Shown here: in pieces, positions 3,162 to 64,000 of the stretch
Numbering within the stretch: position 1 is the first letter of the stretch
Layout: every line of letters starts with the position of its first letter
Origin: Allolobophora icterica
Taxonomy: Eukaryota; Annelida; Clitellata; Crassiclitellata; Lumbricidae
Assembly: GCA_963556255.1 (NCBI GenBank)
Contig: OY744607.1
Location: forward strand, 54,454,264-54,518,263
Direction of reading: 5' to 3'
DNA: 64,000 nt
The notes under the pieces: generated by a model
What the model was told of the DNA's origin: nothing
The model's input: only the letters and a program-made list of their open reading frames with translations
Database searches by the model: none
Position numbers and translations under genes: made by a program

Positions 3162-3165
3162 CTAT

Positions 3166-7140: not shown

Positions 7141-7284
7141 TAAATGATCGATGCTGGGCCTTCGCATGAAAAAGTAAGAGAAACGATGCTGTTCCCTTCG
7201 CATGTAAACTGAAAGAAAACTATGCTATTCGCATAAAATAAATCCTCCCACATACGCACTGTGACCTTGACCGCCACAAAATCA

Positions 7285-7620
7285 AGGTGAGGTAGGGTAG
7301 GTTAGGGTAAGGTACAGTGTGGTAGAGTAAGGTAAGATAAGGTAATGCAAGGTAAAGGAAGGTAGGCATGGTCTGATATTCACTTTCAGGTATTGAATAT
7401 TCTATATGGAAAGCTGCACGTCAGATACGTATTTAGATCGAAGTCAAGGTAAGGTAGCCAAGCCAAGGTAAGGTAAGGTTAGTCAAGTATAGGTAGGGCA
7501 TCATAAGGTAAGATGAGTTAAAGTAAAGTAAGGTTATCTAAGGCAAAGAAAGACAATGCAGGACATGGTAGGATAGGATAAAGTCAGTTAAGGTAATTAA
7601 TGTGAGGCGGGTAAGGAAAA
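7285..7620. repeat. Degenerate (AAGGT)n low-complexity tract
   Basis: Imperfect 'aaggtaaggtaagg' repeats fill this stretch, broken by a unique segment near 7370-7440. No coding potential was seen. Confidence 0.85.
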
Positions 7621-7677
7621 GCAATCACTCATCTATTAAAAGCCTGGAACTTCATCTAAAAACACTAGACTTTTAAG

Positions 7678-23515: not shown

Positions 23516-23954
23516 GTAACCGATTAGGTAAAGTGCTGGAGTCCGGGGTCGAGCCTTCTTCCTTGAGATGGTTACCGTGTAGGGACAACTGCTCGGTGCC
23601 ATGAGCTGGTACTTGGTCATCAGGTAGTGGTGCCTAAAAGATGTGCATTAATAATTCATCACCTCAGCAGATGAGGGAGGGTTGGCAATTCTCACCTGTC
23701 CATCCACTAACAATGCACAACTGATGGGGTCGATAACCGATTAGGTAAAGTGCTGGAGTCCGGGGTCGAGCCTTCTTCCTTGAGATGGTTACCGTGTAGG
23801 GACAACTGCTCGGTGCCATGAGCTGGTACTTGGTCATCAGGTAGTGGTGCCTAAAAGATGTGCATTAATAATTCATCACCTCAGCAGATGAGGGAGGGTT
23901 GGCAATTCTCACCTGTCCATCCACTAACAATGCACAACTGATGGGGTCGATCGA
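23516..23954 (+). repeat. 217-bp exact tandem duplication of a SINE-containing segment
   Basis: 'cgattaggtaaagtgctgga' begins at 23521 and again at 23738. The two copies appear identical through 'actgatggggtcgat'. Each contains a family-1 SINE-like head (gctggagtccggggtcgagc) and body. Confidence 0.9.
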
Positions 23955-31421: not shown

Positions 31422-31648
31422 TTAGGTAAGTCCAACTTTCAGATACCATACCAATGTTTTGAAAGCCTTTTGCTCTGTGTAGTTGTAGCGATGCCTGCGG
31501 AGGAAGAACGGGTAGAAGCGACAGCACCAGCAACAGAACGTGAAGAAAGTCACCAGGATTCCTCCAAAGAGGAGCAACAAAATGGTCAGAAGAATTCGCC
31601 AGTCGATTCCTGTGTCGAGCAATTTCGATAAAGTATCCGAATTGTTGG
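31422..31648 (-). CDS. Terminal exon: transmembrane segment and cytoplasmic tail
   Basis: Acceptor 'cttattttactcgtag' is followed by [17 protein letters not shown] and a hydrophobic helix [20 protein letters not shown]. Then come a cysteine cluster CCWCC (possible palmitoylation) and a basic tail [17 protein letters not shown] ending before TAA (31422-31424). Phase 1 matches the stalk exon: T plus CC gives a Ser codon. An ATTAAA variant polyadenylation signal is possible at 31385-31390 on this strand. Confidence 0.78.
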
Positions 31649-34600
31649 CTACGAGTAAAATAAGAAAGGGAATGGTTGTAGTGCAAATAGAGATATGAAT
31701 AATATTATTATGATCCAATTATCCCACAGCAGCGTCCTGCAGGACATGAACTTCGTATGAAATAGGCCTACTCCCACATGGGCTTCGTATTTCCTACATA
31801 ATTATGGAATCATGTGGGCCAATATGCAGGACCTTATGAAGCCCACATTATCCCCACATGACAATATTCCCATACGGATTTCATATGTCTTGCATATGAG
31901 GTTGCTGTTAGGGAGGAGAAGTTCTTCAAATTGCGCAACGCCTACATTCCTTTGCGATCCCACTAAATCTGCTCTTCATCTTCTCGCCTCCAAGTTCTCT
32001 ACCCTTGGACAGGTTCAAACGTCCTCTCGAAGCTGGGCCTCCTCCGTCAGTCTACTATATCCATCCACCATCATCCAGTTCAACAGCTTCCGTCTGGGTA
32101 TTCCTCTCGTTTTCTCTCCCTCCATTCCTCCCTCTATGACAGTTTTCAGTAGGGAATCCTTCTCAAAATGTGACCAATCCACTTCCTGTCTTTCTCTTAT
32201 AGGAGGCCTATCCATAAGAGACCTATCCTCTTCCACCTTATACAGCCAAACATATCGGCGACCTAAAATTAAGTCCAGCCATTAACAGAGAAATTGGAAA
32301 AATCAGCTTACAAGATGACGTGTTGTTGCCATTTCCGAACGGATTGAAAGTGGTAGACGACCATTGTCCCGTGAGCGGTGTAAGTGGTCCCCCATTCGAA
32401 ACAGTTGATGATCCAGTTCCTCCACTGTTCGACGATGTATTTCCTGTTAATGAGGGATCGATGGTCGAAGCACCTGATGGTACAGTTCCTCCGCTGTTCG
32501 GCGATGCACTACCTCTTGCCGAAGGATCGATGGTCAAAGGGTCCTTCAAAGCACTGAAGGGTCTCGAAGTGGTGATAATGGAGTTGGGGGTGGTAGTGGT
32601 AGGCTTCGGCGTGCTTGTTGCCACTGTAAGGCAAAGAGCCAAAAAAGTTGAATACACAATTCTACTGCGTCATACACAGAAAGAACAGTTTCGTACACAA
32701 ATGCAGTATCTGGTGCCATTTGACTTGACTTCACATGATGTAACGTGACATTCATAACAAAACAATGACTTTACAACACCTTTATTACAACCCTACACCG
32801 AACGATGCAGAATTTTCTATCGCTATGATTTTACGTTGAACGTGTGTTAATATTGCCTACCCGTGCAAGTTCCGCTTGAAGTTAACTCGTAACCACTTTG
32901 ACATGCGTCGCATCCGCCGGCACCAGACATGTTACAGCCGACACTTGCGTTACAGTTCAATGCACATTCTAAAATAAGGGAATAATAGATGCTATCACAT
33001 CTGAAAGAATACAGGAATGCAACAGAGTGTGTAGCTGAAGAGCCTCTCTCGAAAGTGATTGTTGTATTGAAGCCGTAAAAACGACCTTTAATTTCTGTCA
33101 AAACCTTACTGCAAATGTATACAGGTACACGTGTGAGGTCGAAATTGAATTTATACATTGTTTCAAAACCAACTATGGTCAATCATCGAAAGCATGGAAA
33201 GAAACATATATGGGCTCGAATGGAAGCATATTTTAAATACCAGAAAGAAATAGCCAGCTTTAACAAAGATTTTCGTCAAAAAGCGTCAGAACCTAGTAGG
33301 CCTACTGTGCAAAAATATTAATTTAAACATATAAACTCTGCAGTCGTTAACACATAATGTCGCAAAAGTCATTTGCTGTCAGTCCTTATCACGGATCACA
33401 TCGATCGCACGTCGACGATATTGCATCCGGCTACGCAGTACGCTAGCTTTCCTGAAAAGCAGAATAGCCTACAGGAGCATCAACCCGTGAAAACGTTTTG
33501 AATTATCGTGATACTAAAGATGTAGATACCAGCTTAGGCCCACGTCATAATTAAAAGAAAATTTCGGTAAATTACGTCAAAACTGAAGAAGAAAAAACAG
33601 AAGCAAAAACAAACTATATTAAGGCATAACTATAAGCATGCTACTGAAATCAAAATCAATAGTACATACTGTCGCACGATCCATTTGTCGTAAGTGCATA
33701 TCCAAGATCACACCGATCACACTTATAGACGCCAGAGATGTTGCATCCGGCTGAACAATTAGATGAACATTCTAAAATAGCATATACAATACAAGAATGC
33801 AATTAATGTGAATAGACCTTAAGCAATATTCTAAAATAGAGTAAATCTAAAACACACTATAAGTTCCCTAAACATTATGAGGCCCATCAACGTGTTAATT
33901 CTGAAGGACTAAGCTGAAAAACCAATACGTTGAATGCGATCTCACATAATAAGATGGCGGCAGCGAGAGATGTTGTTGTGTCGGAGGTATTGTGTTTTAT
34001 TTTGAATAAATTTGGCAAAGTTCCGGAAAATAATATTAAAAGTATAGTTACCACCTTCTATAATGAGTCGGAGATAGCTGCTGGAAAAGAACTGTTCTAC
34101 CAGCGCCTGGAAGGCAAGAAATTAGCAAGTCTACCGCGCCTTGTGAAACGCAAGGGCGATAACAGAGTAAAATCGGACGTGGACGACCTGCTTGCGTTGG
34201 TCAATCTCGCCGACCAGGAGCTTGTGCTCGGTGAATTACCGAGGTTTGTCGCTGAGGACTTAAGTCGCGTCCCGAGCACCAAGCCCGAGGATCTGGACCT
34301 GTTTGTCTTGGCCAAAAAATCCGCGACAACGGAGGACAAGGTAAACGCGCTGACTTCAATGGTCACGGCTGGGGCAACAAGCGATGATAAACTGAACGCT
34401 GTAGCCTTAAAAATTTCGGTCTTGGAGGACATGATAGCTAGTCTGGTCTCAAAGATTGACGCAAGCTCATCCGATGTGCAAGGTACTGCGAAATCAAAGA
34501 TGGATGTGTGCCCACCCAAAGCTCAAGGGACGGCAACATCGGGAGGCGGTATCGTGCCGAAGAATCTTTCTGAGGTGCCTGTAAACAAGCATGAATCTGT

Positions 34601-37600
34601 TTGCATCCCAAATAATGCGACACAGAAACCGTCATTTGCCAAAGTCGCAGGACAGTTGAGTACTGATGGTGGCACGTTCACCACAGTAAAGTCAAAAAGG
34701 AACAAGCCACAGAAAATCACGGTTGGTTCAAGGGAGGGCAGCAGTGCAAAGATTGGAGCAGCAAAACCAGTGCTCTTTAAATCGATCTTCCACATTGACA
34801 ACATCTCAGGAGAATATGGCCCTGGCGACCTTGTGGACCATCTGAAAAGCGTTGACATTCCGGCTCTGTCCGTTTTTGAAAGCAAATCGTGGAGAAAATC
34901 AGGCCCTGATGGTGATGTGTTCAAGGCCTTTCGGCTCTGCATTGAGAGGCAGCATGCAGATCGCATTATGGCAAAAGATACGTGGCCAAAAGGCATCTTG
35001 GTACGCCCCTGGAAGTTCAAGGCTGCAGCCACTGGAACAAAACTGACATCTAACGACGTATCGATAGAAGAAGCCAAGAACACTACCACCAAATCATCAT
35101 GAATCTTACAATTAGCACTTTCAACCTGTATGGACTCAATCAAGGGCTGTCCATGCTGGCAGAGTTGTGCCAGGACTGTAATGTAATTTTTGTGCAGGAG
35201 CACTGGCTGTTGCCAAGTGACCTCGAACGTCTTTCTACAGTGGATTCTAAATTCACTAGTATTTCCAGTTCAGCGATGGAGGATACCAGTGGGCGTGGTA
35301 TATTAAGAGGCAGGCCTTTTGGAGGTGTTGCTATCCTTGTTGAAAATAGACTTATGCCAAGACTAAATATAATAGTCAAACTAGATAGGCTAATTGCTAT
35401 CAAGATTGCAGATTGTGTATATATTAATGTGTATTTTCCTGTACTAAATTGTGACTCGTATGATGACATAATGACAGAACTTCTTGCAAACATCGATGGC
35501 ATCCTAAGCGAAAACTTGGGTTGCAACATCATCCTTGGAGGAGATTTTAATCTGGAATTTCCTAATGGGCTATCCCACTGTCAAATTTTTAATGATTTTA
35601 TTAAGGGTGCAAATCTGATGCTGTGTGACAACAGGGTTGTAGGCCCCACTAAGTACACTTACTTATCTTTTGCGCACAAAACTACATCCTTCATTGATCA
35701 CTTTTTCATCAATAATGCCTTGTTGGATAAGGTGGAGTTATCTGAGATTATTGATAGTGGTATAAACCTGTCAGATCACCTACCATTGGTGCTACACCTT
35801 TCTGACTGCCTACCAGTTAAAAACAGTGACTGTGATAGGCAAAGCTCATATAACAATAAGCATAAAAGATTGAGATGGGATAAAGCTGACCTCATCTCAT
35901 ACTATCATGCTACAAATGTTTATCTATCTGATATTAGTTACCTTAATATGTGCACGAACTGTGCAGTGGGTTGCACCTGTAAGTGTGGTAATGATATAGA
36001 TGCATTCTATGACAAAATAGTTGAGGCTTTATGTAGTGCAGCAGATAAGCACTGCCCCATGACATCTGCTTCTTATTATAAACATTACTGGGATGATCAA
36101 CTCACTGATCTCAAGCACAAGTCTATAGCAGCCCATGATATGTGGAAGGCGGTTGGTAGGCCCAGCCAAGGACCAATTTATGAAGCCAAAAGATGTGCAA
36201 AAGCTGAATACAAGCTTGCTATTAGAAGCAAAAAGGCAGCAGAGGATAAGCACATCTCTAATGACTTGCATGATTATCTACTGGCAAAAGATACCACTGC
36301 ATTCTGGAAAACATGGGAAAGCAAGTTTAAAAGTAAACGCAAAGTTTCTGTGGTAGTGGATGGTTTTACTGAACCCAGTAAAATTGCCAATGCCTTTGCC
36401 ATCAATTTTAAAAATGCATGTTCACCCAATAATGAAAAATATAATGAAGAACTCAGAAGTAAATTTCTTTCTCGGTTCAGCCAGTACAATCCAGCTTTTG
36501 ATTACAGCACAGTATCTGTAGAGGTGGTTGACCAGTGCATCCGCAAAATGAAGCGTGGTAAAGCCCCAGGTTTAGATCGGATAGAGGCAGAGCATCTAGT
36601 ACATGCTCATCCTAGACTGTGTGTGCTCCTATCTCTTCTATTCAACCAGATGCTTAGGCATGGCAAGGTACCTACCAAGTTTGGCTTAGGCATCATTATA
36701 CCTGTGGAAAAAGGGGCCACCCTAGACAATAGTAAGAGTGACAACTATCGAGGTATCACATTGAGCTCCAATCTGTCCAAGCTCTTTGAAATGTGTTTGC
36801 TGGAACTGTACGGTACCTACTTGCTGACTTCCGACCTGCAGTTTGGTTTCAAAAAGGGGTTGGGCTGTTCTCATGCATTGCTTGCTGTAAGATCAGTAGT
36901 TGATTACTTTTCTATTCATGGCTCTAATGTAAACCTGTGTGCATTAGACATGTCTAAAGCTTTTGATAAAGTCAATCACTATGCATTATTTAGCAAGTTA
37001 ATGGATAGATCAGTCCCTCGTGAGTTTTTATGCATCCTCATAAGTTGGTATAGTATGAGTGCAGCATATGTGAGATGGGATAGCATGTTGTCTGATATGA
37101 TCAGTCTAGGCTGTGGAGTCAGGCAGGGTGGTGTCCTCTCACCAATACTTTTTGCGGTATATGTGAATGATGTTATAGAAAAATTGAGCAAGTCCAACCA
37201 TGGCTGCCGGATTGGGGAATTATTTCTGGGATGCATCATGTATGCTGACGACCTTATCTTGATGTCAGCTTCTCTATGTGACATACAAGCCATGGTCGAC
37301 ATTTGTGTGAAAGAACTAGAGAGTATTGACATGAAATTAAATGTAAGAAAATCTCAGGTAATGAGGATTGGCCCTTCCTATCGTGCCGCATGTAAAATGA
37401 TTAGGCTAAACAGTGTTCAAATTAACTATGTAGAAAAACTTAAATACTTGGGGTGTTGTCTTGTTTCTGCCAAGTCATTTAAAGTTAGTTTGCATGAAAT
37501 GAGAGTCAAATTCTACAAATCTTTCAACTCTTTATATAGTAAATGTTGTAAATTCACTGAGCCAGTTCTACTGCATCTTGTTAGTGCTTATTGTAAGCCA

Positions 37601-40600
37601 TTCTTGCTTTACGGAATGGAAGCTATGAGCCTCAGTAACAGTGAACTGAACACACTAAATTACACCTACAGCACTGCCATCTGTAAGATCTTCAAGGTCG
37701 GCCACTGTAGTGTTGAGGACATACTGCACTTCATGCAGGAACCTAACATTAAGGACTGCTGGATGTTAAGAAGAACAAGACTCTTTCTTAGGGGGCCAAT
37801 TACAGGGAATACTGTTGTAAACTTTGTGTGTGAACTTTTATGTACATAGTATAATTGCATTATTAAGGAAATGTGAACTATGTAATATGTTTAATTAGCA
37901 TACTGTCCATTGAATGCTGTATCGATTGTTTTGTTCTGTTTTTGTTGTGCTACCATATTTGGTGAATAAAGATTGATATATAATTAGCCTAATTGGTTAT
38001 GTAACATTCTAGTTATTTCTTGAAAAAGAATAGCTCAGCCACATTTACTCGTTCCCCGTGTCAGGACTTCTCTGGCTGAATCTAGGTCTTTTGCTTCCAT
38101 TGGCCCTGCTCTTTGGATTGAGCTTCCTCCGTTCGTTCGTTCTTCTGTTCTCTCAGGTAGGCCTAACGTTTCTTCCTCTTTTACCTTTCTTAACACTTGG
38201 TTTTTCTCTAGGGGTCTACCGCATTGGCAGCGCTTCTGAATGGCCCGCCCGCTAGAAGCGCATTATAAATATCCGAATACAATACAATCAAAGTGATATG
38301 GTCAGTCATTGAAAGCATGGTTAGACCAACAGGGTTGAATGGCAGCCTCTTCTAAAAACGTGAAAGAAAACAGCTAGCCTTTAGAGATGTTTTCGACCAA
38401 AAGCTTTATAGTCTACTGTGCACTTTTTTTTAATGTATAGACTCAACAGTTGTCCTAAGATGCTATCGCAAGAGCCATTTGTTGACATCTAAGGCGAACA
38501 CTTAGCCAAAGTCAATAGCACGTACTGTCACACGATCCATTTGCTGTCAATGCATATCCAAAATCACACCGATCACACTTAGACGCGCCAGTCATGTTGC
38601 ATCCAGCCGAACAGTTGGCTGAACACTCTAAAATATCAAAAATGCACAAACACTATTAAAATGAATACTGGACATTCTGAAATGCCGCAATTCGAAAACG
38701 TTTGCACTAGTTCTAATAACATTTTTAGACCAATCAAGATGGCATTTCTGAAGGACGAAGTTGAAACAAAATCTATGCGCAGAATGCGGAATCAAGTAAT
38801 GGGAAGCTTATTTAACGCTCCAGCTCTATTGGAAAATGAACAAGATGGCTACATTCAGAGAACTATCTTCAAAATCTTCGAACTCATGGATAAACCTATA
38901 CGGCCGAATGGCAACCTCTTTTTTAATGTGAGAGAAAACTGTTTCCCTTGACAGACTTTTGTAGTAAACCGTAATAACCGACCGTCCAGCTGAATATTTA
39001 TTTTAAAATAGAATTCACAATCGTTAACACATAGGCTATTGTCGCTAGAGCCATTTGCTGTCGGCCCATATCCCGGGTCACAAAGATCACACTAATAAAC
39101 GCCGGTGATATTGCAACCCGCTACGCAGTACACTGAACATTATGTAAAACAATACACAGGAACATCCACCTGTGAAAACCTTTTGAAATATCGCGATACA
39201 ATAGATGCAGATACCAGCAAACGTTACAGTTGAAAGGAACTTTCGATAAATTACGTCTCAGTTTAAAAACAAATACGTTTGAGTCACTAGCAAAGACAAG
39301 ATATGTTGTTCTTATACATCACAGCTATTTTGCGCCAGAAGCAAAGAAAACCAAATTAAGGAATTACACATAATATGAAAATAATGCTTAAATAAAATTC
39401 AATAGCACATACTGTCGCACGATCCATTTGCTGTCACTGCATATCCAATATCACATCCATCACACTTAGATGCGCCGGTCATATTGCATCCGGCTGTGCA
39501 GTTCGCTGAACATTCTGACAAATGAAATATTCAGAGAGACGTTAATTCCGTAAAACCTTTTGAAATATCATCATACCAAAGACGGAGGTACAACAATACG
39601 TCGCATTTAAAAGATAATGAAAGACAAAAAGGTTCGCGTCAAAAGCAATAATAAAGTACATCTAAATAAGACATAAAGCAAATCTAAATGAAACACGATT
39701 ACAGAAATATGACAACCATCAAAGGTTTTGAAATATCGTCATACTAAATATGCAGCAACGTGATTCCGTGGCAGTTGAAAGAAAATGAAAGACAAATACG
39801 TTTACGCCACAAGCAAGGAAATGCATAATCATACACAACTAAGCTTTGTTTCATTTCTTTCTACTGCACTGAGCATCCCTATCCCGTTTAACGCCCAGAC
39901 TTTTCTTGTCTTTTTCTACTCGCGTCGGGAAGGATTACTTATATATGCCATACACTGAATTATGTTACTTGATCTGTCGGGTGTCCGCGCATAGCGGGAT
40001 AATTATCCCTTTGGGGCCACCCATTGCTTCCATCACCGACTGTTCTCTCTCACCTTATTTAATGAAACAGTATTAAATGTACCTGACTTGTTATCCTTAT
40101 GTAATTGTTATTTACTGATTGGTTGCAATAAAAAGATATTGATTGATTGATTGATTGATTGATTGAACTATATGGAAAACATATTTAAGTTAAATTCAAT
40201 TCTACATACTGCCACACGATCCATTTGCTGTCAGTCCAAATCCTGGATCACACCGATCACACTTAGATGCGCCAGTCATGTTACATCCAGCTGAACAGTT
40301 AGCCGAACACTCTAAAATATCAAACGCAAGAGCACAATTAAAATGAATTCCGGACATTCTGAAATGCTGTAATTTAAAAACCTTTGTACCAGCTCCATGA
40401 ACATGATTAGATCAATCAAGATGGTATCTCTGAAAAGCGAAGCTGAAGAAAACCTATGCGTAGAATGCGGTATCAAGTAATGAGACCAAATATGATAATA
40501 TGATACATCTAAGGCGAATACTCAAGATTTTACGTTTTGACATATAGTGATGATAAAGATGCACATACCAGCTTAGGTCAAAACCGATAGAGAATTTAAA

Positions 40601-55600: not shown

Positions 55601-58600
55601 GGCTGCGCAGTAAGACGAACATTCTGAAATACAGTTAACAAATCAGTCTGTGAAAACGTTTTGAAATTATAGTGATAATAAAGATGCAGGAGGGGGAAAG
55701 AGTAGTGGTAACACTCATGGCCAGGAGAGCATAAGGTACGCGGACCGACTCCCGTAACTCCCCTCTAGGGCGGCGCCTTGCATGGCTGCCAAACCGTGTG
55801 TTAATTTAGATCTTGATTGTACTTTCATGTTTCAATGCAATCTTTCTGCGTCTGTCGGTTTGAAATAATAAAGAATATATAATTATTATATTAATCAAAA
55901 ACTGATAGAAAATTTAAATAAACTACGTCACAGCTGGTTCGCCTCACTAGCAAAGAGAAATTGTATTAAAGCAAAACTACAAGCATAACTCTTGAATTAA
56001 ATTCAATAGCACATACTCTCGCACGATCCATTTGCTGTCAGTGCATATCCAAGATCACACCGATCACACTTATATGCGCCTGTGGAGTTGCATCCGATTG
56101 AACAGTTAGCTGAACATTCTAAAATATCATAGTCACAAAAACCATATTAATTTGAATAAAGAACATTCTAAACTACAGTCAGCAAGAACATTTGGTCCAG
56201 CTCCGTGAACATTGCTCGGAATATCGAGATGTTATTTCTGAAGGACTTCACCTTGTCACCTTGTGCTGTCAACTCTTGGAGCTCTAGCGATCGTCACGAT
56301 AAACATTCTCCATTGCTTCCTATTCGAAGTCAGGTTCCTTAGTTAAGGGACCTGACTTGAAGGACTTAGTTGAAATAAAAGCTGTGCATAGAGTGTGGTC
56401 TCGTGTAATTGGGCTTCTTTATTGCGATCTACGTGTAGATCTGCATCACAAAAAGAATAGTTTATCTACATTATTGAAAACATATTGTCGCAAGAGACAT
56501 TTCTTGTCAGTCCATATCCCGGATCACATCCATCACACTTAGGTCTATACGCGCCTGTTATTTTGCATCCCTCTGTGCAGTTCGGTGAACATTGTGACAA
56601 ATCAAGTATTCAGAGAAACGTTAGTACCATAAGATCTTTAGAAAAATCACCATATCAAAGATGGAGTTACAACAATACGCTGTATTTCAAAGAAAATAAA
56701 GACAAAAACGTTCGCATCACAAGTAAGGAATAAGCATATCTATATATAACATAAAGTAAATCTAAATGAAACATAATTACAGAAATATCAGAACCGTCAA
56801 ACGTTTTGAATTATCGTCATATTAAATGTGTAGCTACGAGATTACGAGGCAGTTGAAAGAAAATGAAAGAGAAACATCTTTACGCCACAAGCAGGGTAAG
56901 GTATTTTAATACACAACTATAAGGATAACATTAAAGCTAAATTGAATTCTACATACTGCCACACGATCCATTTGCTGTCAGTCCAAATCCTGGATCACAC
57001 CGATCACAGTTATAGGCGCCAGTGACGTTACATCCAGCTGAGCAGTTAGTTGAACATTCTAAAATATCGTGTATTATAAGCATACTGTTACTGAGAATGC
57101 TTAACTTTCTGAAATTCAGTAAATCAAAACATCTAGGCTATACTAGTTCCGTGAAAACATGTCGGTCCACTGAGATGTTCAGAAATTTCTAAAGGACTAA
57201 GTTGAGATACAGTAAACCCTACACGCAGAGTGCGGCGTAATGTATTTGGTCGCTTATATACTGCTCTAGATCTACATTGAAAAGGAATAGTTTAGCTACA
57301 TTCGTGAACACGTACTGTCGCAAGAGCCATTTGCTGTCAGTCCATAACCAAGATCACATCGATCACACTTAGAAGCGCCTGTCATGTTGCATCCGACTGT
57401 GCAGTTCGGTGAACATTCTGACAAATTAAATATTCAGAGAGACGTTAATTCCGTAAAACCTTTTGAAATATCATCATACCAAAGACGGAGGTATAACAAT
57501 ACGTCGCATTTCAAAGAAATTGAAATACGGAAATGTTCGCGTCACAAGCAAGGACAAAGTATATCTAAATATGACATAAAAGAAATCTAAATGAAACACA
57601 ATTACACAAATATCAGAACCGTCAAACGTTTTGAATTATCGTCATATTAAATATGAAGCTAAGAGATTACGTGGCAGTTGAAAGAAAATGAAAGACAAAT
57701 ACCTTTACGCCACAAGCAAGGAAATGCATAATCATACACAACCATATGGATAACATTAAAATTAAATTCAATTCTACATACTGCCACACGATCCATTTGC
57801 TGTCAGTCCAAATCCTGGATCACAACGATCACAGTTATAGGCGCCAGTGACGTTACATCCAGCTGAGCAGTTGGTTGAACATTCTAAAATATCGTGTATA
57901 TACATGTGAGCGCACCATTACTGAGAATGCTTAACTTTCTGAAATAGAGAAAATCAAAACATCTTGACTAGTTTCGTGAAAACATATCAGTCCATTGAGA
58001 TGTTCAAAAATTTCTAAATGGCTAAGCTGAAATACAGTAAACCCTACACGCAGAATGCGACGTAATGTACTTGGCCGCTTATAGTGTGCGCTAGTTCTAC
58101 ATTGAAAAGGAATAGTTTAGCTACATTCGTGAACACCTACTGTCGCAAGAGCCATTTCCTGTCAGTCCATATCCGAAATCACATCGATCACACTTAGAAG
58201 CGCCTGTCATGTTGCATCCGACTGTGCAGTTCGGTGAACATTCTGAATATAGCATAATGATAGAAGCATCAGAACTGTAAAACCTTTTTGGAATACAGTG
58301 ATACTATAGATGCAGAAACCAGTTTAAGTCATTATTGACCGAAAATTTATTTAAACTACGTCACAGTTGAAAGTTTACATCACAAGTCAAAGGAAATATA
58401 CATTGATTCAAAACGATAAGGATAATGCTTAAGCTAAATGCAACCTGCGCCCCTAGCCAACTCAGCTATTTGGAGTACAATAACCGTAGCGTGTCGATGG
58501 GACGATGAGTTGGCGAGGGAGAGGACTGGCTACCCGCCCTCGTATTCCAGGGCTAAGAAAATAAACTGGCCAATACTTCGCACACATGGCTGTCTCAAGG

Positions 58601-61600
58601 TTAGTTTAAGGGGCTGCACCTCTTCTTTTTCTAAGCTAATTGTTATATGCCTACTGTCGCAGGAGCCATTTGGAATCAGTGCATCGCATCTCCAGAATCA
58701 CACAGAGCTAACTTGCGGAAGCCTGTGATGTTGCATCCGGTTGAACGTTTTTTACATTACAAATTTTCATTTAAAAGAACCCTAATGCGAAGAGCACACA
58801 GCAGTCAGTAAAATTCGGTTTAGCTCTGTCAACGCTATTACACCCATGAAGGTGTTATTTCTGAAGAATCAAACTGAAATAATACCTATACGAAGAATGT
58901 AGAGTAATGTATTAGGATGTGTTTGTAACTGTCTAGCTCAAAATACACTGTATTGCAACACATACTGTCGCAAGAGCCATTTGCTGTCAGTCCATATCCC
59001 GGATCACACCGATCACACTTGTAAACGCCGGTGACATTGCATCCGGCTGCGCAGTAGGACGAACATTCTGAAATATAGTAAACAAGGACATCAGTCTGTG
59101 AAAATGTTTTTAAATTATAGTGATAATAAAGATGCAGACACCGTGTAAATCAAAACTGAAAAAAATTTAAATAAATTACATCACAGCTGGTTTGCGTCAC
59201 AAGCAAAGACAATCTGTATAAAAGGTAAAATTATAAACATAACACCTAAATGAAATTCAATGGAACATACTGTCGCACGATCCATTTGCTGTCAGTGCAT
59301 ATCCAAGATCACACCGATCACACTTATATGCGCCTGTGGAGTTGCATCCGAGTGAACAGTTAGCTGAACATTCTAAAAAAATCACGTATAAAAACATTAT
59401 TTATTTGCATAGTGAACATTCTAAACTACCGTAACAATGAACATGTGGTCCAGCTCCGTGAACATTGTTCGGCCATCGAGATGTTATTTCTGAAGGACTT
59501 AGTTGGAATAAAGCTGTACATAGACTGTGCTGTCAGGTAATTGGGATCTTGTTTAGCGCTCTAGACATGTATTACAAACAGAATAGTTTATCTACATTAA
59601 TGAACACATACTGTCGCAAGAGCCATTTCCTGTCAGTCCATATCCAAGATCACATCGATCACACTTAAAAGCGCCTGTCATATTGCATCCGGCTGTGCAG
59701 TTCGGTGAACATTCTGACAAATAACATATTTAGAGAGACGTTAGTACCGTAAAAGCTTTTGAAAATCACCATACTAAAGACGGAGCTACGGTATCACGTC
59801 TCATTTGAAAAAACCTGAAAGACTAAAGCTTCATGTCACAAGCAATGTCAAAGGATATCTAAATGTAACATAAAGATCAAATGCAATAAGACTTATCAGA
59901 TTATTGCCAGGGTGGCTCGGGGACGTGCTGGGCGGGGGGGATGAACCAACTGAGACTCCGGGTTTACTAGAGTCAAGAGCTTGAGAGTTCTTGGAGAAAT
60001 TATATCTGACACCCTTGGTTTCGATGAGCATATCGATCGAATTTGCTGTGGGGCCAGGCAGTCCTTGTATGGCTTTCGCGTGCTTACTGTCCCTGGTCTT
60101 GCTGATCCCAGGCTGCATGATGTGGTGCGAGCTACTGCGCTGTCACCTCTGCTGTATGCCGCCCCGGCATGGTGGGATATGCTGGACAACAAGAAAAAGG
60201 AAGGAGCCAGGCAGTTGTGAATAGGCAAAACCGACAGAGGTACCACCCTGGTGATTGCTCAAAGATCGAAGACATGTGCCGCCTGGCCGATACCCGTCTG
60301 TTTTCGGCAGTTCTCGAAGAACCGGGTCATGTCCTTCATGGGTTGCTCCCTCCAGTTAAGCCAAAGGTTTATAGCCTGCGCCCCAGACGCCATGACCGGG
60401 TGCTGCCAAAAGCAGACAATCCAAAGAAGAAAACATTTATAGTCAGAATGCTATTTACGTATTAATTTATTATGATGTATGAATGCTGATGCATGTTCAC
60501 CAGAGTGCTGTTTGGCAAATGGTTATATTAAAGAATATACTTACATACTTACTTACTTAAATCTCAATAAACTTCAATAAAAATATTAAATTTAATTCCA
60601 CATACTGCCGCACGATCCATTTAGAGTCAGTCCATATCCAGGATCACATCGATCACAGTTATAGGCGCCAGTGCCGTTACATCCAGCTGAGCAGTTAGTT
60701 GAACATTCTAAAATATCGTGTATATAAGCATACTATTACTGAGGATGCTTAGCTTTCTAAAACACAGTTAATTAAAACATTTGGACAAGTTCCGTGAAAA
60801 GATTTCGGTCCTTTTAGATGTTCAGAAATTTCTGAAGGGCTAAGCTGAATTACAGTAAAAGCGTACATGTAGAGTGCAGAGTAATGAAATTGGCCGCTTA
60901 TTATGTAATGCAATAGCTCTGTATTACAAAAGAATAGTTTATCTAAATTTGTGAACACATACTGTCGCACGAGCCATTTGCTGTCAGTCCATATCCAATA
61001 TCACATCGATCACATTTATAAGCGCCTGTCATATTACATCCGGCTGTGCAGTTCGGTGAACATTCTGAATGTAAAATAAATATAGAAGCATTAGAACTGC
61101 TAAACGTTTGGAATATCGTGACAATAAAGATGCAGAAACCAGTTAACATCATTATTGAAAGAAAATTTAGGTAAATTATGCTGAAAAAGTTTTCTTCACA
61201 AATCAATGGCAAGATACCTTAATTCATAACTATAAGGTAAACGCTTAAGGTGAATGCGCCCTTACCCAACTCACCTATAGCGAGTACACTGACCGTACAC
61301 TATCGGCGAGGGAGAGGAGTGAGAGGACTGACAACCGGCCTTCATATTCCGTGGTTAATAAGATGAAGTCGCTAATACTTTATTTGCTATCAGTGGATAT
61401 CCAGAATCACACAGAGGTAACTTATGGGAGACTGTAATGTTGCATACGGTTAAATTGTTTTTTTTTCATCACAAATTTCTTATAGCCCTACAAGAACACT
61501 AGTACCAAGAACACGCCGCAAGCAATAACATTTGGTCTAGTTCTGTCAATGCTATTACACTTATAGAGGTGCTATATCTGAAGGACCAAGCCGAAATAAA

Positions 61601-64000
61601 AAAATTTAATGTATTGGGATGTGTTTGTAACTTTCTAGCTCAATATACACTGTATTTCAACACATACTGTCGCAAGAGCCATTTGCTGTCAGTCCATATC
61701 CCGGATCACACCAATCACACTTGTAAACGCCGGTGATATTGCATCCGGCTGCGCAGTGGGACGAACACCCTGAAATACAGTAAACAAGAATATCAGTGTG
61801 TGAAAACGTTTTGGTATATAGCGATTATAAAAAATACACATACCAGATTAGTCAAAACTGACAAAAATTTAAATAAATTATGTCACAGCTGGTTTGCGTC
61901 ACAAGCAAAGACAATCTGTATAAATTTAAAATCATAGACATAACACTTAAATAAAATTCAATGGCACATACTGTCGCACGATCCATTTGCTGTCAGTGCA
62001 TATCCAAGATCACACTGATCACACTTATATGCGCCTGTGGAGTTGCATCCGATTGAACAGTTAGCTGAACATTCTAAAATATCACATTCAAAAAACATTA
62101 TTTATTTTCATAGTGAACATTCTAAACTACCGTAACCAAGAACGTGTGGCTCCCCCTCCGTGAACATTGTTCGGCCCATCGAGATGTTATTTCTGAAGGA
62201 CTCAGCTGGAATAAAGCTGTACATAGACTGTGCTTTCAGGTAATTGGGATCTTGTTTTGCGCTCTAGACATGCATTACAAAAATAATAGTTTAGCTACAT
62301 TAATGAACACATACTGTCGCAAGAGCCATTTCCTGTCAGTCCATATCCAAGATCACATCGATCACACTTATAAGCGCCTGTCATATTGCATCCGGCTGTG
62401 CAGTTCGGTGAACATTCTAACAAATAACATATTTAGAGAGACGTTAGTACTGTATAAGCTTTTGAAATATCACCATACTAAAGATGGAGGTACAATGTTA
62501 CGTCGCATTTGAAAGAAAAATGAAAGACAGAAACTTCGCGTCACAAGCAATGTCAAAGTATATCTAAATGTAACATAAAGTATATCTGAATAAAATTCAA
62601 TAAAAAATAATAAATTAAATTCCACATACTGCCGCACGATCCATTTACAGTCAGTCCATATCCTGGATCACACCGATCACAGTTATAGGCGCCAGTGCCG
62701 TTACATCCAGCTGAGCAGTTAGTTGAACATTCTAAAATATCGTGTATATAAGCATACTATTACTGAGGATGCTTAGCTTTCTAAAACACAGTTAATTAAA
62801 ACATTTGGACAAGTTCCGTGAAAAGATTTCGGTCCTTTTAGATGTTCAGAAATTTCTGAAGGGCTAAGCTGAATTACAGTAAAAGCGTACATGTAGAGTG
62901 CAGAGTAATGAAATTGGCCGCTTATTATGTAATGCAATAGCTCTGTATTACAAAAGAATAGTTTATCTAAATTTGTGAACACATACTGTCGCACGAGCCA
63001 TTTGCTGTCAGTCCATATCCAAGATCACATCGATCACATTTATAAGCGCCTGTCATATTACATCCGGCTGTGCAGTTCGGTGAACATTCTGAATGTAAAA
63101 TAAATATAGAAGCATTAGAACTGCTAAACGTTTGGAATATCGTGACAATAAAGATGCAGAAACCAGTCAACATCATTATTGAAAGAAAATTTAGGTAAAT
63201 TATGCTGAAAAAGTTTTCTTCACAAATCAATGGCAAGATACCTTAATTCATAACTATAAGGTAAACGCTTAAGGTGAATGCGCCGTTACCCAACTCACCT
63301 ATAGTGAGTACACTGACCGTACACTATCGGCGAGGGAGAGGAGTGAGAGGACTGAAAACCGGCCTTCATATTCCGTGGTTAATAAGATGACGTCGCTAAT
63401 ACTTCATTTGCTATCAGTGGATATCCAGAATCACACAGAGGTAACTTATGGGAGACTGTAATGTTGCAAATGGTTAAATTGTTTTTTTTTCATTATAAAT
63501 TTCATATAGGCCTACAAGAACACTAGTACCAAGAACACGCCGCAACAATAACATTTGGTCTAGTTCTGTCAATGCTATTACACTTATCGAGGTGCTATAT
63601 CTGAAGGACCAAGCCGAAATAAAATAACATAATATATTGGGATGTGTTTGTAATTTTCTAGCTCAATATACACTGTATTTCAACACATACTGTCGCAAGA
63701 GCCATTTGCTGTCAGTCCATATCCCGGATCACACCGATCACACTTGTAAACGCCGGTGATATTGCATCCGGCTGCGCAGTAGGACGAACACCCTGAAATA
63801 CAGTAAACAAGAATATCAGTGTGTGAAAACGTTTTGGTATATAGCGATTATAAAAAATACACATACCAGATTAGTCAAAACTGACAAAAATTTAAATAAA
63901 TTATGTCACAGCTGGTTTGCGTCACAAGCAAAGACAATCTGTATAAAGGTAAAATCATAGACATAACACTTAAATAAAATTCAATGGCACATACTGTCGC
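31422..64000 (-). CDS. Membrane protein gene with a tandem array of EGF/furin-like repeat exons (5' end outside window)
   Basis: This is the summary entry for the spliced gene; exons are listed separately. From the right edge leftwards there are 43 repeat exons (42 complete), a 312-nt Ser/Thr/Pro stalk exon and a terminal transmembrane exon. Nearly all repeat exons are exactly 102 nt, begin with the last two bases of a Lys (sometimes Arg) codon and end one base into the next, so every junction is phase 1. The repeat has six cysteines spaced C-x3-C-x3-C-x7-C-x2-C-x11-C with a Gly-Tyr/Phe after the fifth, resembling EGF or furin-like (FU) repeats; exact family not settled. Most repeats have sequons N-C-S/T, N-x-T and N-G-S. 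Donors are mostly A|GTATGT and acceptors TTTTAG or TGACAG/CAG. The likely product is a type I glycoprotein with at least 1,450 repeat residues. Signal peptide and any N-terminal domains lie beyond 64000. Whether all exons join one transcript is untested. Confidence 0.8.
31722..31915. mobile_element. MITE-like inverted-repeat element in last intron
   Basis: The left part 'cagcagcgtcctgcaggaca' and, inverted from the right, 'cagcaacctcatatgcaaga' are similar. The interior has 'cccacatg' words like the element at 28893. Ends approximate. Confidence 0.5.
31905..32285 (-). mobile_element. Degraded non-LTR RT C-terminal fragment
   Basis: Minus-strand reading includes [20 protein letters not shown] and [20 protein letters not shown]. 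This corresponds to the '[19 protein letters not shown] ... LLDWMM' block of the fragments at 52163 and 55126. Intronic. Confidence 0.7.
32312..32623 (-). CDS. Stalk exon, Ser/Thr/Pro-rich (mucin-like)
   Basis: Acceptor 'ggctctttgccttacag', donor CATCTT|GTAAGC, 312 nt, phase 1 to 1. It encodes [20 protein letters not shown] and two imperfect 23-residue repeats, starting [17 protein letters not shown] and [17 protein letters not shown]. Abundant Ser/Thr/Pro predicts O-glycosylation; NNTSS and GNTSS add N-sequons. It probably forms an extended membrane-proximal stalk. Confidence 0.75.
32861..32968 (-). CDS. Repeat exon 1 (most C-terminal, divergent)
   Basis: 108 nt, two codons longer than the norm: [34 protein letters not shown]. 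Donor ACGG|GTAGGC; joins the stalk exon as GTG (Val). Confidence 0.8.
32969..33669 (-). other. Intron between repeat exons 1 and 2
   Basis: Contains the decayed exon at 33357-33452 and a stretch (33176-33330) similar to intronic sequence at 38300-38430, i.e. duplicated with the array. Nothing else seen. Confidence 0.5.
33357..33452 (-). pseudogene. Decayed repeat exon a
   Basis: Recognisable from 'gacagcaaatg' and 'gccggatgcaatat', but the length is out of frame and the donor GT is changed (GACATTATG). Confidence 0.75.
33670..33771 (-). CDS. Repeat exon 2
   Basis: [32 protein letters not shown]. 102 nt with intact splice sites. The LINE begins 180 bp to the right in the next intron. Confidence 0.85.
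33954..35102 (+). CDS. LINE ORF1 protein (382 aa from preferred start)
   Basis: ATG at 33954 has a strong context (aagATGG). A further ATG 24 bases upstream extends the frame, but those bases align with host intron. The N-terminal region is acidic/basic and probably helical ([17 protein letters not shown]). The middle is linker. The C-terminal part, [20 protein letters not shown] then [20 protein letters not shown] and W-P, has the look of a nucleic-acid chaperone or RRM-like ORF1 domain. No CCHC knuckle was seen. It ends TCATCATGA, overlapping ORF2's ATG. Confidence 0.75.
   Translation: MAAARDVVVSEVLCFILNKFGKVPENNIKSIVTTFYNESEIAAGKELFYQRLEGKKLASLPRLVKRKGDNRVKSDVDDLLALVNLADQELVLGELPRFVAEDLSRVPSTKPEDLDLFVLAKKSATTEDKVNALTSMVTAGATSDDKLNAVALKISVLEDMIASLVSKIDASSSDVQGTAKSKMDVCPPKAQGTATSGGGIVPKNLSEVPVNKHESVCIPNNATQKPSFAKVAGQLSTDGGTFTTVKSKRNKPQKITVGSREGSSAKIGAAKPVLFKSIFHIDNISGEYGPGDLVDHLKSVDIPALSVFESKSWRKSGPDGDVFKAFRLCIERQHADRIMAKDTWPKGILVRPWKFKAAATGTKLTSNDVSIEEAKNTTTKSS
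35099..37849 (+). CDS. LINE ORF2: AP endonuclease and reverse transcriptase (916 aa)
   Basis: The N-terminal APE-type endonuclease has FVQEHWLL (E34), [11 protein letters not shown] (about 145) and [14 protein letters not shown] (about 225). The RT domain has [19 protein letters not shown] (about 485-505), [71 protein letters not shown] and the catalytic [14 protein letters not shown] (about 712). No stop or frameshift interrupts it. The start overlaps the ORF1 stop as ATGA, a layout that suggests termination-reinitiation. No RNase H or C-terminal zinc knuckle was recognised. Confidence 0.92.
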   Translation: MNLTISTFNLYGLNQGLSMLAELCQDCNVIFVQEHWLLPSDLERLSTVDSKFTSISSSAMEDTSGRGILRGRPFGGVAILVENRLMPRLNIIVKLDRLIAIKIADCVYINVYFPVLNCDSYDDIMTELLANIDGILSENLGCNIILGGDFNLEFPNGLSHCQIFNDFIKGANLMLCDNRVVGPTKYTYLSFAHKTTSFIDHFFINNALLDKVELSEIIDSGINLSDHLPLVLHLSDCLPVKNSDCDRQSSYNNKHKRLRWDKADLISYYHATNVYLSDISYLNMCTNCAVGCTCKCGNDIDAFYDKIVEALCSAADKHCPMTSASYYKHYWDDQLTDLKHKSIAAHDMWKAVGRPSQGPIYEAKRCAKAEYKLAIRSKKAAEDKHISNDLHDYLLAKDTTAFWKTWESKFKSKRKVSVVVDGFTEPSKIANAFAINFKNACSPNNEKYNEELRSKFLSRFSQYNPAFDYSTVSVEVVDQCIRKMKRGKAPGLDRIEAEHLVHAHPRLCVLLSLLFNQMLRHGKVPTKFGLGIIIPVEKGATLDNSKSDNYRGITLSSNLSKLFEMCLLELYGTYLLTSDLQFGFKKGLGCSHALLAVRSVVDYFSIHGSNVNLCALDMSKAFDKVNHYALFSKLMDRSVPREFLCILISWYSMSAAYVRWDSMLSDMISLGCGVRQGGVLSPILFAVYVNDVIEKLSKSNHGCRIGELFLGCIMYADDLILMSASLCDIQAMVDICVKELESIDMKLNVRKSQVMRIGPSYRAACKMIRLNSVQINYVEKLKYLGCCLVSAKSFKVSLHEMRVKFYKSFNSLYSKCCKFTEPVLLHLVSAYCKPFLLYGMEAMSLSNSELNTLNYTYSTAICKIFKVGHCSVEDILHFMQEPNIKDCWMLRRTRLFLRGPITGNTVVNFVCELLCT
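38040..38292 (+). mobile_element. CR1-like LINE 3' end
   Basis: One frame reads [20 protein letters not shown] and then S-V-L-S-G, followed in another frame by [11 protein letters not shown]. This is the usual C-terminus of CR1-like RT ORFs ('R-S-F-x-x-x-x-P-x-L-W-N-x-L-P'). It ends 'atccgaatacaatacaat'. Confidence 0.75.
38526..38627 (-). CDS. Repeat exon 3
   Basis: [32 protein letters not shown]; 102 nt, acceptor TTTTAG. Confidence 0.85.
39040..39141 (-). pseudogene. Decayed repeat exon b
   Basis: 102 nt retained, but the Lys codon before the fourth Cys is TAG, the sixth Cys is Ser, the donor GT is AT and the acceptor AG is gone. Confidence 0.85.
39413..39514 (-). CDS. Repeat exon 4 (type B)
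   Basis: [32 protein letters not shown]. Acceptor ATTTGTCAG. Confidence 0.87.
39839..40166 (+). mobile_element. LINE 3' end with (GATT)n tail
   Basis: Interrupts the conserved intron string 'catacacaact|atatgg'. It ends 'ggttgcaataaaaagatatt' then (GATT)6. The tail type matches 10831-10862. No ORF. Confidence 0.75.
40210..40311 (-). CDS. Repeat exon 5 (type A1)
   Basis: [32 protein letters not shown], then G. First member of the A/B dimer run. Confidence 0.87.
40710..40811 (-). CDS. Repeat exon 6 (type B)
   Basis: Protein identical to repeat exon 4, differing by a silent change (GCG for GCA). Donor A|GTATTT. Confidence 0.86.
41178..41279 (-). CDS. Repeat exon 7 (type A1)
   Basis: CSSNCSAGC variant of A1 (Ala to Ser after the first Cys); otherwise as repeat exon 5. 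Confidence 0.87.
41678..41779 (-). CDS. Repeat exon 8 (type B)
   Basis: Protein identical to repeat exon 4. The 2.2-kb transposon follows in the next intron. Confidence 0.87.
42412..43752 (-). pseudogene. Transposase remnant ('ACRHH' family) in three frames
   Basis: The frame changes near 43320-43370 and 42860-42970. An ACRHH motif, WxAxL-like hydrophobic blocks and a C-terminal segment remain. The catalytic acidic residues could not be identified with confidence. Confidence 0.65.
43754..44029. mobile_element. hAT-type MITE (276 bp), copy 2, nested
   Basis: Inverse orientation to the copy at 24270-24522. Ends CATCGGCGTCC and, inverted, CATGGGTGTCC. The flanks CAGGCAAG/CAAGCAAG (43746-43753 and 44030-44037) match at seven of eight bases. 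Confidence 0.72.
44355..44456 (-). CDS. Repeat exon 9 (type A2)
   Basis: [32 protein letters not shown], then G. Sequon N-V-T replaces N-M-T. Confidence 0.87.
44644..45473 (+). mobile_element. Dispersed repeat 'ACTAGCTGG...TATATAGAT', copy 3
   Basis: Starts actacctggtttacccagcg and ends 'tctcgctttatttatatagat' less one base. It contains about seven gactgcttcgcagtc-type hairpins and a second internal 'tttacccggcgttgcccggg' start. Two 'cgttatgcgcattattaatg' repeats follow, matching copy 2. It lies in the intron between repeat exons 9 and 10. Confidence 0.8.
45671..45772 (-). CDS. Repeat exon 10 (type B)
   Basis: [32 protein letters not shown], ending G instead of D. Confidence 0.87.
46139..46240 (-). 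CDS. Repeat exon 11 (type A1)
   Basis: Same protein as repeat exon 7 (CSSNCSAGC). Confidence 0.87.
46640..46741 (-). CDS. Repeat exon 12 (type B)
   Basis: Type B protein; acceptor TTTGTTAG rather than TTTGTCAG. Confidence 0.86.
47114..47215 (-). CDS. Repeat exon 13 (type A1)
   Basis: [32 protein letters not shown]; as repeat exon 5. Confidence 0.87.
47605..47706 (-). CDS. Repeat exon 14 (type B)
   Basis: [16 protein letters not shown]: Val to Leu relative to the other B repeats. Confidence 0.87.
48077..48178 (-). CDS. Repeat exon 15 (type A2)
   Basis: NVTGAYN. The exon begins GG, so the junction codon becomes AGG (Arg) instead of Lys. Confidence 0.86.
48568..48669 (-). CDS. Repeat exon 16 (type B)
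   Basis: [32 protein letters not shown]. Acceptor TTTTCAG. Confidence 0.87.
49033..49134 (-). CDS. Repeat exon 17 (type A2)
   Basis: [23 protein letters not shown]. Ends the 0.97-kb dimer run. Confidence 0.87.
49368..49469 (-). pseudogene. Decayed repeat exon c
   Basis: 102 nt, with a premature TAG in place of Lys before the fourth Cys, and that Cys mutated to Tyr (TAT). Confidence 0.85.
49673..50826. mobile_element. hAT-type element with (AAGACC)n-like subterminal arrays (1154 bp)
   Basis: Inverted ends CAGTCTTGT, with the perfect 8-bp duplication GAAATATC (49665-49672 and 50827-50834). Both ends carry arrays of 'ggtcttggtcttgaggttca' (49730-49870 and 50640-50815). The interior has no credible ORF; low-complexity translations such as [10 protein letters not shown] are artefacts of the array. 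Confidence 0.92.
51002..51103 (-). CDS. Repeat exon 18 (type A2)
   Basis: [32 protein letters not shown]. Thr after the first Ser marks the right-hand A2 subgroup. Confidence 0.87.
51356..51457 (-). CDS. Repeat exon 19 (type C)
   Basis: [32 protein letters not shown]. Confidence 0.87.
51821..51922 (-). CDS. Repeat exon 20 (type A2)
   Basis: [32 protein letters not shown] (Ala to Gly before N-G-S). Confidence 0.87.
52163..52505 (+). mobile_element. Non-LTR RT C-terminal fragment, copy 1
   Basis: 5'-truncated insertion with a 3' 'aaagaaga' tail and flanks AGTTCTA/AGTTCGA (52156-52162 and 52506-52512). It is open for 111 codons: [60 protein letters not shown]. This C-terminal block is common to endonuclease-RT LINEs; clade not assigned. 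It is intronic and lies opposite to the gene. Confidence 0.8.
52554..52655 (-). CDS. Repeat exon 21 (type D)
   Basis: [32 protein letters not shown]. Tyr replaces Asn, removing the first sequon. Confidence 0.87.
52721..52928 (+). mobile_element. Retroposon 3' end (no ORF), copy 1
   Basis: Interrupts the intron string 'gataataaagatgca'. It contains 'gtaactcccctctaggacgg' and ends 'gaaataataaagaatatata'. Confidence 0.65.
53048..53149 (-). CDS. Repeat exon 22 (type E)
   Basis: [32 protein letters not shown], ending E. Confidence 0.86.
53503..53610 (-). pseudogene. Repeat exon d with both splice sites lost, copy 1
   Basis: 108 nt. The frame is still open ([34 protein letters not shown]), but the acceptor AG is AC and the donor GT is AT. 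Probably skipped; symmetric phases would make that harmless. Confidence 0.75.
53974..54075 (-). CDS. Repeat exon 23 (type A2)
   Basis: [32 protein letters not shown]. Confidence 0.87.
54324..54425 (-). CDS. Repeat exon 24 (type C)
   Basis: [32 protein letters not shown], ending N instead of D. Donor A|GTACGT. Confidence 0.87.
54790..54891 (-). CDS. Repeat exon 25 (type A2)
   Basis: [23 protein letters not shown]. Duplicate of repeat exon 20 in the 2.97-kb unit. Confidence 0.87.
55126..55472 (+). mobile_element. Non-LTR RT C-terminal fragment, copy 2
   Basis: Same insertion as 52163-52505, carried by the segmental duplication (offset about 2963 bp) with few differences, e.g. a 3-bp insertion near 55225. 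Confidence 0.82.
55522..55623 (-). CDS. Repeat exon 26 (type D)
   Basis: [32 protein letters not shown]; Thr to Ala relative to repeat exon 21. Confidence 0.87.
55689..55896 (+). mobile_element. Retroposon 3' end, copy 2
   Basis: Duplicate of 52721-52928, near-identical. Confidence 0.65.
56017..56118 (-). CDS. Repeat exon 27 (type E)
   Basis: Same protein as repeat exon 22, with a silent change in the Asn-Ser-Thr codons. Confidence 0.86.
56486..56593 (-). pseudogene. Repeat exon d with both splice sites lost, copy 2
   Basis: Duplicate of 53503-53610 with the same AC acceptor and AT donor, so the splice sites were lost before the duplication. Confidence 0.75.
56957..57058 (-). CDS. Repeat exon 28 (type A2)
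   Basis: [23 protein letters not shown]; duplicate of repeat exon 23. Confidence 0.87.
57316..57417 (-). CDS. Repeat exon 29 (type C)
   Basis: [32 protein letters not shown], ending D. Confidence 0.87.
57782..57883 (-). CDS. Repeat exon 30 (type A2)
   Basis: [32 protein letters not shown]. Confidence 0.87.
58141..58242 (-). CDS. Repeat exon 31 (type C)
   Basis: [32 protein letters not shown]. Donor A|GTAGGT. Confidence 0.86.
58440..58640. mobile_element. SINE family-2 body fragment
   Basis: 'ccaactcagctatttggagt', 'gagttggcgagggagaggac' and 'cccgccctcgtattccaggg' match the body at 27770-27880. Related fragments in the 2.02-kb repeats are at 61253-61380 and 63278-63400. Confidence 0.6.
58655..58752 (-). 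pseudogene. Decayed repeat exon e
   Basis: 'gttgcatccggttgaacg' and 'actgtcgcaggagccatttg' remain, but several indels break the frame and the cysteine pattern. Confidence 0.7.
58966..59067 (-). CDS. Repeat exon 32 (type D)
   Basis: [32 protein letters not shown]. Confidence 0.87.
59271..59372 (-). CDS. Repeat exon 33 (type E)
   Basis: [32 protein letters not shown]. Confidence 0.87.
59612..59713 (-). CDS. Repeat exon 34 (type C)
   Basis: [32 protein letters not shown]. Confidence 0.87.
59895..60561 (+). mobile_element. 5'-truncated LINE, RT C-terminus
   Basis: Frame 1 has [20 protein letters not shown] and [18 protein letters not shown]. After a frameshift near 60210 come [40 protein letters not shown] and [11 protein letters not shown]. 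This is the standard C-terminal block of CR1/Jockey-like RT ORFs. The 3' tail is 'aaagaatatacttacatact' plus (TACT)n; the same tail in reverse occurs at 7931-7950. Confidence 0.85.
60606..60707 (-). CDS. Repeat exon 35 (type A3)
   Basis: [32 protein letters not shown]; the sequon is N-G-T here. Confidence 0.87.
60963..61064 (-). CDS. Repeat exon 36 (type C)
   Basis: [32 protein letters not shown]. Confidence 0.87.
61383..61465 (-). pseudogene. Decayed repeat exon f, copy 1
   Basis: 'atttgctatcagtggatatc' and 'actgtaatgttgcatacggt' are residual; frame and splice sites are lost. Duplicated at 63403. Confidence 0.65.
61668..61769 (-). CDS. Repeat exon 37 (type D)
   Basis: [32 protein letters not shown]; Trp replaces Arg between the fourth and fifth Cys. 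Junction codon AGG (Arg). Confidence 0.86.
61972..62073 (-). CDS. Repeat exon 38 (type E)
   Basis: [32 protein letters not shown]; Gln replaces Arg. Confidence 0.87.
62315..62416 (-). CDS. Repeat exon 39 (type C)
   Basis: [32 protein letters not shown]. Confidence 0.87.
62630..62731 (-). CDS. Repeat exon 40 (type A3)
   Basis: [32 protein letters not shown]; Val where repeat exon 35 has Leu. Confidence 0.87.
62987..63088 (-). CDS. Repeat exon 41 (type C)
   Basis: [32 protein letters not shown]; one residue from repeat exon 36. Confidence 0.87.
63403..63487 (-). pseudogene. Decayed repeat exon f, copy 2
   Basis: Duplicate of 61383-61465 at an offset of about 2.02 kb. Confidence 0.65.
63691..63792 (-). 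CDS. Repeat exon 42 (type D)
   Basis: [32 protein letters not shown]; junction codon Arg as in repeat exon 37. Confidence 0.87.
63995..64000 (-). CDS. Repeat exon 43, partial at window edge
   Basis: Only the donor-side six bases are inside the window, after the shared intron string 'aaaattcaatggcacatac'. Position matches repeat exon 38 at +2023. Confidence 0.7.

Follow-up and report, generated by a model that had tools for sequence, protein, structure and literature searches.

The window, our term for the whole 64,000-nucleotide stretch of Allolobophora icterica contig OY744607.1 analysed here, carries on its minus strand an array of one-repeat exons followed by a stalk exon and a transmembrane exon. 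We counted 42 open repeat exons, of which 41 are 102 nt long and lie between positions 33670 and 63792 (first exon 63792-63691, last 33771-33670). The other, at 32968-32861, is a divergent, membrane-proximal exon of 108 nt with C-x5-C between its second and third cysteines. All 42 are preceded by AG and followed by GT, have phase 1 at both ends and encode a single six-cysteine repeat, which is 34 residues long in the 102-nt exons. These counts bear out an earlier note on this DNA, which had claimed 42 repeat exons, all but one of 102 nt, in phase 1/1. Because each exon encodes one repeat and has phase-1 borders, duplication, loss or skipping of an exon preserves the reading frame.

A scan for phase-1 AG-102 nt-GT units carrying the motif that opens the repeat returned 42 minus-strand copies; of these, 41 are open and one bears a stop. 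The cysteine spacing C-x3-C-x3to5-C-x7-C-x2-C-x11-C, uninterrupted by a stop, occurred 42 times on the minus strand and never on the plus strand; when the minus strand was shuffled by mononucleotides 20 times, every shuffle gave 0 matches. Using a DNA profile built from the exons (nhmmer), we detected 50 copies at E ≤ 1e-3: the 42 open copies with canonical borders and eight broken ones that the earlier count had left out.

The array leads, as had also been claimed, into a phase-1 stalk exon and a transmembrane exon. The Ser/Thr-rich stalk exon (32623-32312, minus strand, 312 nt, phase 1/1) adjoins the 108-nt repeat exon and includes a tandem duplication of 69 nt (1.9 copies, 80% matches). The transmembrane exon (31648-31452, minus strand, 197 nt) enters in phase 1, leaves in phase 0 and encodes the sole strongly hydrophobic segment of the gene model, adjoined by CCWCC. 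A predicted last exon at 31340-31266 (minus strand) keeps the frame from the transmembrane exon, would encode a cytoplasmic tail and ends in TGA. Alternatively, reading through the transmembrane exon reaches a stop at 31422-31424, so that position 31422, the boundary drawn in the earlier reading, is this read-through stop. Both 3' ends appear possible. Joining 45 exons (the 42 repeats, stalk, transmembrane and predicted last exon) gave a stop-free model of 1623 residues with 125 N-glycosylation sequons; 36 of 41 repeats have three sequons and 5 of 41 have two. A protein search for relatives of the stalk end, transmembrane segment and tail gave four candidates with shared words, none at E ≤ 1.

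At its upstream end the array runs up to the window edge. Positions 63995-64000 (minus strand) read GCGACA followed by gtatgtgcc and align within exon 62073-61972 in a 2023-bp duplication, which identifies them as the final 6 nt of a further repeat exon; the array therefore extends past the edge. We identified no signal peptide or 5' end within the window, and the gene must begin beyond 64000.

The earlier note had argued that frame-neutral one-repeat exons are free to multiply or vanish in frame, and the window shows both block duplications and the eight broken copies. One of the latter, a 102-nt copy at 49469-49368 (minus strand), keeps a canonical acceptor; its frame is interrupted by a stop, and its donor, GTGGAT, is poor. 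Another, a 108-nt copy at 56593-56486 (minus strand), is open and keeps all six cysteines, with AC/AT replacing AG/GT. An identical 108-nt copy at 53610-53503 (minus strand) has lost its borders alike. As this border-less copy is present in both blocks of a 2972-bp duplication, it was probably broken before that duplication. We considered whether selection held the two copies identical and rejected this, since their clean stretch of 148 bp is shorter than one of 170 bp in the neighbouring intron. The others are degenerate remnants on the minus strand found with nhmmer, at 63468-63405, 61450-61382, 58746-58640, 39163-39013 and 33483-33336.

The repeat exons look selected. All six cysteines are kept in 41 of 41 exons of 102 nt, and over all pairs of these exons pS was 0.340 and pN 0.105, a pN/pS of 0.31 that serves as a guide only, given paralogous exons, possible gene conversion and non-independent pairs. 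Across nine overlapping pairs of duplicated blocks, mismatch ranged from 0.010 to 0.031 in exons and from 0.022 to 0.121 in introns. Exons were less diverged than introns in all nine, by about twofold or more in seven; the two rates were nearly equal in pairs 60558/62581 (0.020 versus 0.022) and 40166/41134 (0.020 versus 0.028). Codon changes, though few, numbered 2 silent versus 4 amino-acid changing in the youngest block pair and 0 versus 6 in pair 58688/61397, and this excess of amino-acid changes argues, on small numbers, against uniform or strong constraint. It is very unlikely that the array is a decaying or untranscribed relic of tandem duplication without function. Such a relic would fit the breakage of 8 of 50 copies, one with a stop behind a canonical acceptor, and the youngest block pair, which is without clear constraint. 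It would not fit the 42 of 50 copies that are open with canonical borders, the invariant cysteines and low pN/pS, or introns that have diverged more than the exons.

The array evidently grew by duplication of multi-exon blocks in two layers, with 5- to 6-exon units upstream and 2-exon units downstream. A 2972-bp block duplication spans 50827-58091 (4306 aligned bp, 95.0% identical), and the 2023-bp duplication, cut by the window edge, spans 60558-64000 (1421 aligned bp, 97.7% identical). Two-exon tandem units of about 960 bp (period 959) occupy 45471-49199, with 92.9% identity over 2792 bp. What the window holds, then, is tandem in-frame exon units of one module within one gene, together with recent block duplications that carry whole exons. 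Among the ends of eight block pairs, some of them shared, 30 of 32 fall outside the 41 exons; the remaining two are the window edge at 64000, inside the cut exon, and its partner at 61977. Since about 14% of the array is exon, this placement is modest evidence.

A distance cut of 0.12 set seven classes of open 102-nt exons. Their order along the array is 2-5-1-5-6 twice, altered versions of that order three times, 1-4 seven times, and then two divergent 102-nt exons, after which the 108-nt exon follows. The two divergent exons, nearest the membrane among those of 102 nt, are the farthest from the other open ones (nearest distances 0.118 and 0.127), as would be expected if exchange homogenised the interior of the array.

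Several other elements occupy the introns and flanks. A LINE-type element occupies 33918-37846 (plus strand), antisense within the intron of 4754 nt that separates repeat exons 38627 and 33771. It has an ORF with endonuclease and reverse transcriptase domains, which follows an ORF of 394 codons. Long ORFs at 42415-43809 (minus strand), perhaps of a mobile element, lie in a 2575-nt array intron; two of these were compared with Pfam and matched nothing at E ≤ 0.1. Open frames at 52158-52496 and 55111-55464 (plus strand) and 32018-32281 (minus strand) have a common motif, which we take to resemble the end of a LINE reverse transcriptase; two lie inside duplicated blocks and one between the stalk and transmembrane exons. 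The intron that precedes the stop-bearing copy has GTCTTG-rich minisatellites at 49732-49842 and 50628-50814. A satellite at 21696-22228 is composed of units 52 to 180 bp long in which CTGCTTCGCAGTC occurs, and translated units at 44696-45001 are similar to it by eye. Two adjoining 217-bp copies at 23517-23951 are 100% identical, and TAGGCCTA occurs 17 times in the whole window versus about 1 expected at equal base frequencies. Positions 1-8000 have higher GC (0.49 and 0.48) and long open frames on both strands; one ORF from this region had no Pfam match. Scans of the window with Rfam (gathering thresholds) and for tRNAs found nothing.

Relatives of the repeat were sought in a protein collection. 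Among about 8000 scored candidates in each search, a 501-residue query had at least two matches at E ≤ 0.001 and a five-repeat alignment at least six. P0001 has a hydrophobic N-terminal stretch followed directly by at least eight repeats, and in P0003 a single frame runs through two complete repeats and into a third that is present in part. Both carry repeats in series in one frame, which points to concatenation in these relatives and away from the use of one exon picked from many. The last repeat of P0003 shares C-x5-C with the window's terminal repeat; its identification as a counterpart is weak, as it scored 78 versus 77 for exon 38627 when four repeats were compared. P0002 is a weak relative (E 9.6e-8) whose long N-terminal half is without these repeats.

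The relatives bear on the possibility of combinatorial splicing, in which cells would pick subsets of the frame-neutral exons and isoform diversity would be the function, as in Dscam. All 42 open repeat exons are symmetric, which would permit such choice, and their classes are distinct, with a mean of 24.6 of 32 residues in common between classes versus 29.7 of 32 within them. In addition, making a full-length protein would require the stop-bearing exon to be skipped. Yet P0001 and P0003 concatenate their repeats, donors are near-uniform (GTATGT in 36 of 44 introns), and the exon classes are interspersed, unlike the clustered alternative exons of Dscam, of which one is used. Each of these observations is still compatible with skipping. 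Overall, we regard combinatorial splicing as the function of this array as unlikely.

Four further matches, P0005 to P0008, look like genomic fragments in which exons are read through their borders. P0005 aligned best with two neighbouring exons, 62073 (class 6) and 61769 (class 2), and the intron between them (E 2e-33); its second match, nearly as good at E 1e-31, paired exon 39514 (class 4) with the remnant near 39163, so the identity of the exon pair is not unique. The complete repeat of P0005 agrees best with class 2, at 29 of 32 residues, as against 24 for the next class. Class 5 is the nearest for P0006, by one residue, and for P0007, by two, and P0008 ties classes 5 and 8.

Because P0005 comes from another contig and has two adjacent repeat exons with an intron similar to the window's, it argues against an assembly artefact in which haplotypes or repeats were falsely placed in tandem. 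The top block identities of 97.7, 97.4 and 96.0% could fall in the range of haplotype differences. Against this, block identities are graded from 97.7 down to 76.5% among the best 60 of 86, and the longest exact repeat found was 349 bp, with each 200-mer compared to its first occurrence only. We consider false tandem placement highly improbable.

The earlier note had not recognised this gene as belonging to a described family, and our searches were in accord. With hmmscan, no Pfam model reached its cut-off for four repeats (E ≤ 0.1), for P0001-P0004 (E ≤ 1), or for 12 repeats, the 3' end and P0001 (E ≤ 10), negatives to be read with the caution that HMMER filters may penalise Cys-rich sequence. 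The strongest sub-cut-off match was to the unrelated Porin_8 (E 0.0038; 16.8 versus 25 bits). One sequence search of the PDB gave nothing at E ≤ 1, and another gave a single match at E 0.7, to an enzyme. A PDB profile search gave four matches, two of them to zinc-finger proteins and the others to a PHD domain and a PDI-like protein; at E 0.45 to 1.7, none was credible. We took the zinc-finger, porin, viral and Hemotin matches from the Pfam and PDB profile searches as composition matches. A literature search, weak as a negative because its coverage was partial, recognised no described gene of this build.

Six cysteines with C-x2-C and a final GY.L...G..C give the repeat a putative resemblance to the furin-like and EGF-like repeats of PC5B and growth factor receptors. 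Together with a 5' end that lies beyond the window, this likeness raises the possibility that the array belongs to a larger enzyme or receptor, such as a PC5B-type proprotein convertase, as its C-terminal, Cys-rich, membrane-anchored part, with the main domain upstream. There is precedent in that PC5B differs from PC5A in its cysteine-rich and transmembrane domains, PC5A having a shorter cysteine-rich domain and lacking the transmembrane domain (PMC9296861, in part). The long repeat-free half of P0002 likewise indicates that other architectures exist. However, neither furin-like nor EGF-like models were among the Pfam matches listed, and the repeats of P0001 start right after its N-terminal hydrophobic stretch. 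A larger enzyme or receptor of this kind seems improbable to us.

It is very likely that the locus is a real gene with a repeat absent from Pfam, and that it is built and evolving like DMBT1, LPA and CR1. In its full form, our preferred explanation is that the window probably holds the 3' part of one type I membrane glycoprotein gene, whose array evolves by unequal exchange and whose modules are under selection. The encoded protein would begin with a presumed signal peptide beyond the window, continue through at least 41 tandem 34-residue six-Cys repeats and a divergent last repeat, and end with a Ser/Thr-rich stalk, one transmembrane helix and a short tail. The array would be enlarged and homogenised, a block of several exons at a time, by unequal exchange between homologous introns; selection would keep the modules, and single exons would decay and drop out. 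Spliced in series, the disulphide-bonded repeats may form a long rod, each repeat bearing as many as three N-glycosylation sequons. The protein would extend from the cell surface and serve in adhesion or recognition, and repeat number would set its length. The receptor or adhesion role that the earlier note proposed is putative. The more specific proposal of a length-polymorphic recognition receptor from an uncharacterised repeat family, with alleles varying in the number and order of exon classes and a part in gamete, self or microbe recognition, is in our judgement unlikely.

The modules of CR1 are complement control repeats. The KIV-2 repeat of LPA (apolipoprotein(a)) is a 5.6-kb unit with two exons per kringle, and its product is not a membrane protein; in the window, unlike LPA, every repeat is a single exon and the units measure 1 to 3 kb. 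KIV-2 is a coding copy-number repeat with 1 to more than 40 copies per allele (PMC6314250, in part), and CR1 has surface-protein size alleles of 3 to 6 units that arise by unequal crossing-over of a long homologous repeat (PMC4842007, in part). The window, known from one sequence, shares tandem coding repeat units with LPA and, with CR1, a surface protein, here a predicted one, made from repeat units. In human DMBT1 (SALSA), CNV1 is a 4-SRCR unit and CNV2 a single-domain unit, with a potential 7 to 20 SRCR domains (PMC4851238, in part). Like DMBT1, the window, as read from sequence only, has a tandem Cys-rich array in one gene with multi-exon and short-unit layers. In contrast to the SRCR modules, secretion and CUB and ZP domains of DMBT1, it has a small six-Cys repeat and a transmembrane segment.

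By analogy with DMBT1, apo(a) and CR1, human cases in which repeat number varies from person to person, the best reading is a long, glycosylated protein that crosses the membrane once and whose length at the cell surface could ratchet by whole repeats. The array documents clearly the multiplication of a frame-neutral exon. Its units come in two sizes, its duplications are graded in identity, and an exon that had lost its borders was copied along with a duplicated block; the interior is more uniform, and the membrane-proximal exons are divergent. Should individuals differ in repeat number, the locus would be a counterpart of DMBT1 and LPA on another module, and would offer a way to study the effect of length on a surface protein.
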